A stretch of DNA of 64,000 nucleotides, taken from positions 186,001-250,000 of the forward strand of contig NZ_FOXI01000001.1 of assembly GCF_900115675.1 (NCBI RefSeq). Reading direction: 5' to 3'. Of the stretch, positions 38,190-41,684 are shown piece by piece. The position numbers and the translations under genes were made by a program. Below the pieces are notes generated by a model, which searched no databases, was not told where the DNA came from, and was given only the letters and a program-made list of their open reading frames with translations. Source of the stretch: Halolamina pelagica (lineage in GTDB: Archaea; Halobacteriota; Halobacteria; Halobacteriales; Haloferacaceae). The first letter of the stretch is position 1, and every line of letters starts with the position of its first letter.

Positions 38190-39170
38190 CTACAGCTCCA
38201 GCCCGCGGATCGCGACGCCCTCGCCCTCCTCGACGTGGCCGATCACGCGCCCCTCGGTCTCCCCGACGAGCGAGTCGGCCGCGTCCGGGTCCAGCGCCGC
38301 GACGAAGCCGGTCCCCATGTTGAACGTCCGGTGCATCTCCTCGTCGCTCACGTCGCCCAGATCCTGGACGAAGTCGAACACCGGCTGTGCGGGCCAGGGG
38401 TCGTCGACGACGTAGCGGTGGTCGCCCAGCCGTTCGAGGTTCGTCCAGCCGCCGCCGGTGACGTGTGCGGCGGCACGGACGCCGTGCTCGCGCATGGGGT
38501 CCAGCAGGTCGGTGTAGATGCGGGTCGGCTCCAGCAACGCGTCCCCGACGGCGTCGTAGCGCTCGCCGGGGTAGGGGTCAGTGTACTGGTACTCGCGGGT
38601 GACCGCCTCGCGGGCGAGCGTGAGTCCGTTCGAGTGGATGCCGGAGGACTCCCAGCCCACCAGCGCGTCGCCGGGTTCGGCGCTGCCGGGGAAGACGGCG
38701 TCTTTCGCCGCCAGCCCCGCGCAGGTGCCCGCGAGGTCGAGCCCCTTCACGACCTCCGGCATCACCGCCGTCTCGCCGCCGACGAGTTCGAGGTCCGCGG
38801 CGTCGGCGCCGGCCGCGAGCCCCTCGCCGACCTGTTCGGCGAACGTCTCGTCGGGTTCGTCGACCGCGAGGTAGTCGACGAACGCAACCGGGCGCACGCC
38901 CGCGGCCACGAGGTCGTTGGCGTTCATCGCGATGCAGTCGATGCCCACCGTCGAGTAGTCCGCCATCGCCTCGGCGACGAGCAGTTTCGTCCCGACGCCG
39001 TCGGTCGCCAGCGCGAGGTAGCGGTCGCCGATGTCCAGCAGGCCGGCGTAATCGCTGTCGGTGCCCTCGCCAGCGGCGCCCGCGGCCCCGACCAGCGCGG
39101 CCGTCGCCGCCTCGCTCTCGGCGATGTCGACGCCCGCGTCGGAATAGGTCAGCCCCTCCTCCTCGGTCAT
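38190..39170 (-). CDS. purM: Phosphoribosylformylglycinamidine cyclo-ligase
   Basis: PurM closes the imidazole ring to give aminoimidazole ribonucleotide. The 326-residue protein shows the family's LTYSDAGVDI start, ATDGVGTKLLVAEAM (about 55-69), the NDLVAAGVRPVAF and GGETAVMPE motifs, and SSGIHSNGLTLAR near the middle. The ATG at 39170 starts five residues before the conserved TYSDAGVD. It is apart from purF, so the purine genes are scattered. It is downstream of the site-2 protease gene on the same strand, 60 bases away. Confidence 0.95.
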   Translation of the reverse strand: MTEEEGLTYSDAGVDIAESEAATAALVGAAGAAGEGTDSDYAGLLDIGDRYLALATDGVGTKLLVAEAMADYSTVGIDCIAMNANDLVAAGVRPVAFVDYLAVDEPDETFAEQVGEGLAAGADAADLELVGGETAVMPEVVKGLDLAGTCAGLAAKDAVFPGSAEPGDALVGWESSGIHSNGLTLAREAVTREYQYTDPYPGERYDAVGDALLEPTRIYTDLLDPMREHGVRAAAHVTGGGWTNLERLGDHRYVVDDPWPAQPVFDFVQDLGDVSDEEMHRTFNMGTGFVAALDPDAADSLVGETEGRVIGHVEEGEGVAIRGLEL

Positions 39171-39230: not shown

Positions 39231-39923
39231 TCAGAAGCCGATCCCGAGCACGAAGACTACGTACACCGTCACCGCGATGCTAGGCAGGAACACGGCCGCC
39301 CAGACCGCCTTGCTCCAGCCGACGATCGTCTTCCCGTCGAGCGCGCCGATGGGGATCATGTTGAACGCCGCGAGGAACAGGTTCACCGCGAGCCCGCGTC
39401 CCCCCAGCAGTTCCAGCGGATCGACGCCGAGGGCGACGCCGGCGATCCAGAGCGGGACGAACACCGCCGCGAGGGCGAGGTTCACTGCCGGCCCGGCGAG
39501 CGCGATCAGCCCGTGCTGGCGCGCGGTGAGCCGGCCGCGGTGGTGGACCGCCCCCGGCGCGGCGAAGATGAAGCCGAGGAAGGCGCTCATGATCGCCAGA
39601 AAGAGCATGTTGTACTCCGCGCGGAACGCGGCGACGTTGTCGTACCGGACCGCCATCACCTTGTGCCCGAGTTCGTGGAGCAGGAACCCCACGCCCGCGG
39701 TCAGCAGCGAGACGACCAGCGCGACCGCGAACGTCGTCGGGCTCCCCGTCACGAGTGCGATCGCGCGCTGCCCGCCGCCGGCGAAGAAGATCGCGAACGC
39801 GACCCCGAGTGCGAGCCACGCGATCAGCAGGTCCTGGATCTCCTGTGCCGAGAACCGTAGCGAGGGCTCGGGCTCGAAGCGGCCGCCGCCCGCGCCGCCC
39901 CGCCCGCCGTCGGGTGCGCTCAC
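39231..39923 (-). CDS. Site-2 protease-family membrane metallopeptidase (M50)
   Basis: This 230-residue protein has about six membrane helices, the zinc motif HELGH (83-87) in a helix, and the third ligand in FNMIPIGALDG (Asp196). It lacks PDZ or CBS domains. Such proteases cut substrates inside the membrane. The start is GTG at 39923, inside the stop codon of the TraB-family gene (GTGA overlap), so the two are made together. Its substrate is unknown, and adjacency to TraB suggests membrane peptide or protein control. Confidence 0.92.
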   Translation of the reverse strand: MSAPDGGRGGAGGGRFEPEPSLRFSAQEIQDLLIAWLALGVAFAIFFAGGGQRAIALVTGSPTTFAVALVVSLLTAGVGFLLHELGHKVMAVRYDNVAAFRAEYNMLFLAIMSAFLGFIFAAPGAVHHRGRLTARQHGLIALAGPAVNLALAAVFVPLWIAGVALGVDPLELLGGRGLAVNLFLAAFNMIPIGALDGKTIVGWSKAVWAAVFLPSIAVTVYVVFVLGIGF

Positions 39924-41590
39924 GCGACCCACCCCCAGATGGTTCGGGCGCTGTTCTGTGCGCCCTCGATCAGGAGCCGTGGAACGGCACTGACGCCGCC
40001 GATGTCGCCGAAGAAGGGCGGGAGGACGTACAGCGCGAACAGGAAGGAAGCGATGAAGCTCCCGACGTTCGTCAGCGCGACGATCATGATGAGCTTGAAC
40101 AGCGGCACCTCGAACATCCGGTCGATCAGCTCCATCAGCGGCGTCTCCTGGTCGTCGAGCAGCGCGTTCAGCGTCTCGATGTCGCCGACGTTCACGGTGG
40201 TGTACCGGAGTTCGACGTAGCCCGCGAACCAGCCCGGCGCGAGCAGGGGGTTGACCGAGGTGAGCCAGGCGACCGAGCCGCCGACCAGCGCCGAGGGCCA
40301 GTGGGCGCCGACCAGCCGGGCCAGCCCCGCGGCGAACACGCCGTTGACGACGAACCACGCCGCGAACAGTTCCAGCAGGAAGCGGTCCTCGACGCCGGCC
40401 ATCGCCAGCAGCACGAAGAAGGCGACGAAGGCGCCGGTGATGGCGACGGCGGCGATCTTCCCCCACGGCAGGAGGCGCTCCCGTTGCCCGGTCAGCGACT
40501 CACGCGGCGGCAGTCGCTCGGGGTGGGCGAGGTACTCTTCGATCCCCGCGCGGTGACCGGCGCCGACGATGGCGACCACGTCCTTCCCCTGGGCGCGCAG
40601 GTCGAGCAGGTTGTGCGCGATGAAGGCGTCGCGCTCGTCGATCAGCGCCTCGGCGCCGCCCGGGGAGAACTGCCGGAACTCCTCCATCATCGCGGTCACC
40701 ACGTCGGTGTCCGTCAGCTCGTCCGGGTCGAGCAGCTCTTCCATCTCCTCGTCGGTCGACTCGCCGTCGTCGCCGAACAGGCTCATCGCGCCCGCGACGG
40801 CGACGCCGACGACCAGCCCCGCGGCGAGGCCGAGCGTCATCGACCCCACGGCGCTGATCACGAACCCGCCGAGGTACCCGGTGACCAGCGAGTCGGTCAG
40901 CCCGAGGCCGACGCCGGCGAGGGTGCCGACGGCGAACCCGCCGCCGCCGGCGACCGCGAGCGCCAGCGCGTCGTCCTCGAGGGTGCGGAACGAGAGCTCC
41001 GCGAGCACGTACGCCGAGAGCAGCCCCACCAGTGCGCTCCCGGTGAGGCCGACCAGCAGCGACTGCGTGACGCCGACGGCGCCGCCGAAGACCCCGAGAA
41101 CCGGGCCCAGTACGACTCCGACCAGCAGGCCGAACATCACGCCGGCGATCCGGGGGTCGGTGATCCCGAACGCCAGCGAGCCGACGACCTGTAGCTTCTC
41201 GAACAGCCCCATCCGCGACCAGAACCGACGGATCGTCTCCTGGATGTCCCGGTCGACCAGGGCGACCTCGATGCCCAGGTCCTCCGCGGTCTCGACGGCG
41301 GCGAGCATCTCCGCGCCGGGCTCGATGTCGAACTGATCGCCCAGCCGCGCCTGCACGTACGAGAGCATCCAGTACGCGAGGAACTGGAAGACGGTGTTCC
41401 CCTCGAGCAGGTCGCCCGCGGAGAGGTCCTCGGGCTCCCCGCCCCGCATCTGGCTGTAGCGCCCCTCGTCCAACTCGACGGCGACGACGTCCGGGCGTTC
41501 CTCCTCGATGGTCCCCTCGACCTCCCGGACGCTCTCGGCGGAGACGTGCGCGGTCCCCACGACCTGCACGCTCCCCTCCGATTCACTCAT
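39920..41590 (-). CDS. TraB/PrgY-family membrane protein
   Basis: This 556-residue protein has an N-terminal soluble TraB domain (about 1-150) with GTAHVS (12-17) and VELDEGRY (38-45), a block of about five helices (about 150-290), an acidic soluble part with IVGAGHRAGIEEY (about 345-357), and about five more helices to the end. TraB proteins share the fold of Tiki/ChaN/GumN metal-dependent peptidases. In Enterococcus, TraB and PrgY stop sex-pheromone signalling; the archaeal function is not known. It is the first gene of a pair with the S2P protease. Confidence 0.9.
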   Translation of the reverse strand: MSESEGSVQVVGTAHVSAESVREVEGTIEEERPDVVAVELDEGRYSQMRGGEPEDLSAGDLLEGNTVFQFLAYWMLSYVQARLGDQFDIEPGAEMLAAVETAEDLGIEVALVDRDIQETIRRFWSRMGLFEKLQVVGSLAFGITDPRIAGVMFGLLVGVVLGPVLGVFGGAVGVTQSLLVGLTGSALVGLLSAYVLAELSFRTLEDDALALAVAGGGGFAVGTLAGVGLGLTDSLVTGYLGGFVISAVGSMTLGLAAGLVVGVAVAGAMSLFGDDGESTDEEMEELLDPDELTDTDVVTAMMEEFRQFSPGGAEALIDERDAFIAHNLLDLRAQGKDVVAIVGAGHRAGIEEYLAHPERLPPRESLTGQRERLLPWGKIAAVAITGAFVAFFVLLAMAGVEDRFLLELFAAWFVVNGVFAAGLARLVGAHWPSALVGGSVAWLTSVNPLLAPGWFAGYVELRYTTVNVGDIETLNALLDDQETPLMELIDRMFEVPLFKLIMIVALTNVGSFIASFLFALYVLPPFFGDIGGVSAVPRLLIEGAQNSARTIWGWVA

Positions 41591-41684
41591 TGCGCACGGT
41601 TCGGCGCCGCCGGGCCTTTACCGTGACGAAGCGCGGTTCGGCCCTCCCGAACCGTTTTTGGGCCCTGCCGTCGCGCTCTCCCCC

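Follow-up and report, generated by a model that had tools for sequence, protein, structure and literature searches.

A gene of the TraB/PrgY family and a gene for a short site-2 protease (S2P) stand side by side almost without exception in Halobacteria, and elsewhere in the phylum Halobacteriota a second, separate S2P family is found next to the same TraB. The presence of two separate S2P families beside TraB supports an association that is real and old. We tentatively favour, with somewhat less than even confidence, the reading that the pair represents, in haloarchaea, an old TraB-S2P unit of archaeal membrane proteolysis, which would carry out housekeeping turnover rather than cell-cell signalling.

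The gene pair and its two proteins

In the window (the whole 64,000-nucleotide stretch analysed here, part of a contig of at least 250 kb) both genes lie on the minus strand in the order TraB then S2P, and the sequence confirmed both open reading frames. TraB, the first gene of the pair (39920–41590, 556 aa), starts with ATG at 41590 and its TGA stop ends at 39920, while S2P, the second (39231–39923, 230 aa), starts with GTG at 39923 and its stop codon ends at 39231. The start codon of S2P and the stop codon of TraB thus share the bases GTGA (39920–39923, minus strand), and the preliminary description of this DNA was right about the two families and about this overlap. Overlaps of four bases are in themselves frequent in prokaryotic operons. 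There is no space for a separate promoter in front of S2P, and TraB and S2P are therefore likely to be on a single transcript. The probable promoter of the pair is a TATA-like element, CACGGTAAAGG, before the TraB start (41612–41630, minus strand), proposed from its likeness by eye across genera, several of which have GGTAAA-type, TATA-like elements about 25–35 bases before the TraB start, again as judged by eye. The divergent intergenic region before TraB also contains an inverted repeat, CGGTTCGG-5-CCGAACCG, followed by TTTTT (41634–41659); it is operator- or terminator-like, and the single further locus read from this genus does not share it. The next gene on the same strand, adjoining S2P, is purM (38190–39170, minus strand; TIGR00878, 304 bits), a frequent neighbour that we count outside the pair, and on the other side of TraB lies a glycerate kinase gene. 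PADLOC returned no match to known defence protein models for either TraB or S2P, and on this ground an anti-phage defence system was rejected.

The first protein scores 259 bits against TIGR00261 (traB, cut-off 178) and 101 bits against PF01963, and profile and fold searches both place the TraB subunit of Tetrahymena complex IV (7w5z) closest to it. The hallmark of the TraB/PrgY family is two GxxH motifs together with a conserved acidic residue. All of these are present in the window protein and invariant in 48 orthologous sequences: GTAH at residues 12–15 (41546–41557, minus strand; G12 and H15), E39, and GAGH at residues 343–346 (40553–40564, minus strand). Also invariant in the same alignment are R44, D113-R114 and D318-E319-R320-D321. 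TIKI enzymes have a 2His/2Glu active site (PMC6254334); proteolytic activity of the archaeal TraB is presumed here by analogy with its superfamily.

Within the TraB domain, alignment, model and protein lengths delimit an insertion of four predicted membrane helices (residues 146–272; 40775–41155, minus strand), modelled at residues 146–172, 176–203, 207–228 and 242–272. Since the number of inserted helices is even, both halves of the domain would be on one side of the membrane. No signal sequence precedes the TraB domain, which starts at the N-terminus, and nearly all charged residues of the protein are within this domain, the loops of the inserted helices being almost uncharged; the lack of a signal sequence and this charge distribution suggest that the domain is on the cytosolic side. 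The insertion is missing from non-haloarchaeal TraB and from some haloarchaeal proteins (the latter 426–440 aa), and both its length and its presence differ from one haloarchaeal family to another. Three loci (L137, L139 and L152) encode a TraB of only 220–231 aa without the C-terminal membrane domain, and in two of them, L139 and L152, the gene still adjoins S2P genes. Because the membrane part varies and these short proteins keep their S2P neighbours, it is the catalytic domain of TraB, and not the membrane part, that keeps company with S2Ps. Some haloarchaea have a second, shorter TraB-like gene elsewhere in the genome (for example G316:C17:8810-9475 and G324:C1:1696482-1697141, in frames of about 280–290 aa).

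The second protein scores 27.6 bits against PF02163 (Peptidase_M50), barely above the cut-off of 27.2. Its assignment to the S2P family is nevertheless firm, since both catalytic motifs are complete and the solved structure 3b4r (M. jannaschii S2P) is found both by the orthologue profile (E=1.4e-6) and as the top structural match by far of a model with pLDDT 93 (Foldseek probability 1.00), although the superposition itself is loose (Foldseek E=0.04, TM 0.38–0.40). The zinc-binding motif HELGH (residues 83–87; 39663–39677, minus strand) sits in a predicted helix spanning residues 62–93 of the model, and its H83, E84 and H87 are invariant in 49 orthologues. In the second motif, NMIPIGALDG (residues 188–197; 39333–39362, minus strand), the orthologue alignment shows N188, P191, L195, D196 and G197 to be invariant in the same 49 proteins, giving the pattern NxxPxxxLDG. 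NCBIfam NF041501 was disregarded for this protein, as the score is far under the cut-off. These features are best explained by a putative zinc-dependent protease that acts within the membrane and whose active site is intact. It shares with the M. jannaschii protein MJ0392 (3b4r) the intramembrane M50 core with HExxH and NxxP...DG. MJ0392 is, however, of the CBS type, as is the S2P upstream of TraB in methanogens, whereas the window protein belongs to a short form of about 210–230 aa without CBS domains and is only distant kin.

Conservation of the pair in Halobacteria

Searches with each protein across the class (145 Halobacteria genomes, 58 genera) found TraB in all 145 and S2P likewise in all 145. 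For the analysis of gene order we took about 15 kb around TraB from one genome per genus and added the window, which gave 59 loci from 58 genera. S2P directly follows TraB on the same strand in 58 of the 59, the lone exception being G021 (L094/L303), where TraB and the short S2P are on different contigs. An ATG or GTG in the S2P frame overlaps the TraB stop in 49 of the 58 paired loci (by −4 in 46 and by −1 in 3). The idea of a TraB-S2P module in the preliminary description is thus supported, and the two circumstances that it regarded as speaking against a module, a pair confined to this genome and an overlap that is not conserved, do not apply.

The surrounding genes are much less constant. 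Only 25 of the 59 loci have purM no more than 200 bases from the S2P stop, though 49 have it on the S2P strand somewhere in the 7 kb downstream, and the gene on the other side of TraB falls into a common cluster in only 7 haloarchaeal loci. As the TraB-S2P link is broken in a single locus of the 59, whereas purM and the upstream neighbour are frequently found away from the pair, this link is specifically retained, beyond mere inertia of gene order. As a functional partner purM was rejected, immediate adjacency being lost in more than half of the loci.

The preliminary description had also suggested that a third gene, for a small membrane or secreted peptide, might be found near the pair. Clustering of open reading frames of at least 60 aa over the 59 haloarchaeal and 32 other loci, with frames of at least 40 aa included between S2P and purM, revealed no small gene that accompanies the pair consistently. 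In L071, L073, L075 and L084 the opposite strand between S2P and purM encodes a membrane protein of about 82 aa with the motif FWxAVxLPxxYLPLLxGG, which has weak matches in L086 and L097. Being near the pair in only four to six loci, it is too poorly conserved to be the third gene of a module.

S2P families beside TraB in other Halobacteriota

The neighbourhood survey covers one archaeal phylum, with Methanobacteriota, Thermoplasmatota, Asgard archaea and bacteria lying outside it. Of 158 genomes sampled from the whole phylum, 157 have a match to TIGR00261. One contig (L235) is titled Candidatus Nitrosotalea; its TraB is typical of Halobacteriota, the Halobacteriota set came up when its genome served as the centre of a phylum search, and the title is probably wrong. 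Among the 32 non-haloarchaeal loci, the short S2P follows TraB in six (L127, L136, L139, L145, L146 and L153). In 18 of the 32 (L127, L130, L136, L139, L142, L145, L146 and L153 among others), TraB is immediately preceded on its own strand by a second, clearly different S2P of about 365 aa with CBS domains and the motif NLIPAFPMDG, mostly no more than a few tens of bases from the TraB start. All six loci with the short S2P carry the CBS-type protein too, in the arrangement S2P(CBS)-TraB-S2P(short); S2Ps on both sides of TraB are also seen in the metagenome-assembled genomes CSMAG_2293, Yes46-10, Met33H and fen_3. The upstream S2P is present in most named genomes of Methanosarcinia and their relatives (Methanolobus, Methanococcoides, Methanohalophilus, Methanothrix/Methanosaeta, Methanoperedens and Syntrophoarchaeum) and, with a larger gap to TraB, in Methanosarcina. 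In Halobacteria the CBS-type S2P is kept at another genomic site. Several lineages have aspartokinase and purM downstream of the cluster.

Absence of the link was established by genome-wide searches with both S2P profiles, the coordinates of the hits being compared with those of the TIGR00261 matches. By these searches no S2P lies beside TraB in families f13, f15, f17, f20, f22 and f27–f30 or in some genera of f14, and the short S2P is mostly elsewhere in the genome in f13, f15, f20, f22 and f27–f30. These families, together with the haloarchaeal exception G021, indicate that adjacency is not obligatory. The simplest reading of the gene orders would be an ancestral S2P(CBS)-TraB-S2P(short) cluster, from which members appear to have been lost differently by lineage.

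Possible roles of the pair

We found no published description of a TraB-S2P gene pair in the open-access literature, outside of which many journals lie. In the unit that we tentatively favour, one transcript starting before TraB would probably yield both proteins, and the S2P would cut transmembrane or signal-peptide-like segments of its substrates. TraB would keep its hydrolase domain, of the Tiki type, at the cytosolic membrane surface, where it might either digest the released piece or control the S2P's choice of cut, and the unit as a whole would serve everyday membrane-protein turnover and clean-up under stress. Some bearing on this comes from Haloferax volcanii, whose proteome contains four S2Ps, two of them, HVO_1555 and HVO_1862, without an extra domain (PMC9263693), and whose PurM-like AIR synthetase is HVO_1557 (PMC4215014). 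Since HVO_1555 is an S2P without an extra domain and is only two locus numbers away from PurM, we infer from its type and from the order of the locus that it is the orthologue of the window S2P. The chaotrope perchlorate induces HVO_1555 along with chaperones and further proteases (PMC12175516), a response more in keeping with quality control than with cell-cell signalling. On the other side of the balance, the TraB locus of Methanococcus maripaludis was struck in a transposon screen for transformation, but a strain cleanly deleted for TraB was viable and transformed normally (PMC10133366). The same screen hit a separate M50 peptidase, MMJJ_13210, with one insertion each for it and for the TraB locus (PMC10133366); given the defect-free TraB deletion, this double hit may be a coincidence.

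Gene linkage alone does not imply that TraB and S2P act jointly, and the pair could belong to an ancestral cluster, S2P-TraB-S2P-aspartokinase-purM, that was passed down and persists through co-expression or by chance, the two proteins having no joint function. The arrangement indeed has the look of vertical inheritance, the old cluster also includes purM and, in several lineages, aspartokinase, and some families live with TraB and S2P apart. However, the displacement of purM and of the upstream neighbour in many haloarchaeal loci, set against a single broken TraB-S2P pair, and the overlapping start codons in most genera weaken inertia as an explanation, and we consider it unlikely. A rather better candidate, although still on the improbable side, is that TraB is a regulatory or scaffold partner which gates or inhibits the S2P and has no working hydrolase here, like BofA/SpoIVFA acting on SpoIVFB. 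In that system too an S2P is under the control of other membrane proteins, but these have no relation to TraB, and SpoIVFB acts on a bacterial sigma factor. TraB stays beside two different S2P families, as would be expected of an accessory protein common to both; its membrane part is large and variable, and S2Ps with inhibitory membrane partners have been described (PMC9042235). Against a purely regulatory role, the presumed catalytic positions of TraB are invariant across the 48 orthologues, and the helix-free TraB of L139 and L152, with S2P neighbours retained, is hard to square with a purely membrane-embedded gate.

The preliminary description had proposed instead that the S2P frees a membrane-derived signal peptide which TraB then silences, as Eep and PrgY do in Enterococcus. 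The enterococcal proteins come from the same two families as the window pair and work in opposition on one membrane-derived peptide: pheromone precursors undergo processing by Eep, and the TraB homologue PrgY is believed to break the pheromone down outside the cell (PMC7117660). The genetic setting differs, however, as in Enterococcus the S2P gene is chromosomal and PrgY plasmid-encoded, with no gene pair, whereas here the TraB gene is chromosomal and universal in the class, and no pheromone gene is conserved. The enterococcal precursor gene is likewise not beside eep, and so the lack of a local peptide gene would leave a distant precursor possible. Nevertheless, with no conserved small gene (the 82-aa frame being confined to a handful of loci), with both genes universal, chromosomal and beside purM, with the TraB domain predicted to be cytosolic while PrgY is thought to act externally, and with the stress induction of HVO_1555, release and blocking of a signal peptide now appears very unlikely. 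The other option in the preliminary description, editing of a membrane protein, may still apply. We would give about as little credence to a much broader idea, namely that TraB-domain proteins were ancestrally dedicated S2P partners, that S2P(CBS)-TraB-S2P was the original general machine, and that PrgY and TRABD/Tiki are specialised offshoots of it. Human TRABD, plant TRB1/2 and the Tetrahymena complex IV subunit 7w5z resemble the window protein in being TraB-domain proteins at membranes, but they have no described S2P partner and no established protease activity (PMC12329661).

To our knowledge, no physiological substrate or partner is known for any archaeal S2P, although structures have been determined. 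TraB proteins, for their part, are termed proteases mostly by analogy. The conserved overlapping pair, and the two S2P families beside the same TraB, make both the question of S2P partners and that of TraB activity testable, with Haloferax volcanii and Methanosarcina as tractable hosts. If the partnership is real, it would link two families of membrane enzymes that are also present in bacteria and eukaryotes, and Eep/PrgY of Enterococcus would be one instance of a wider relation.
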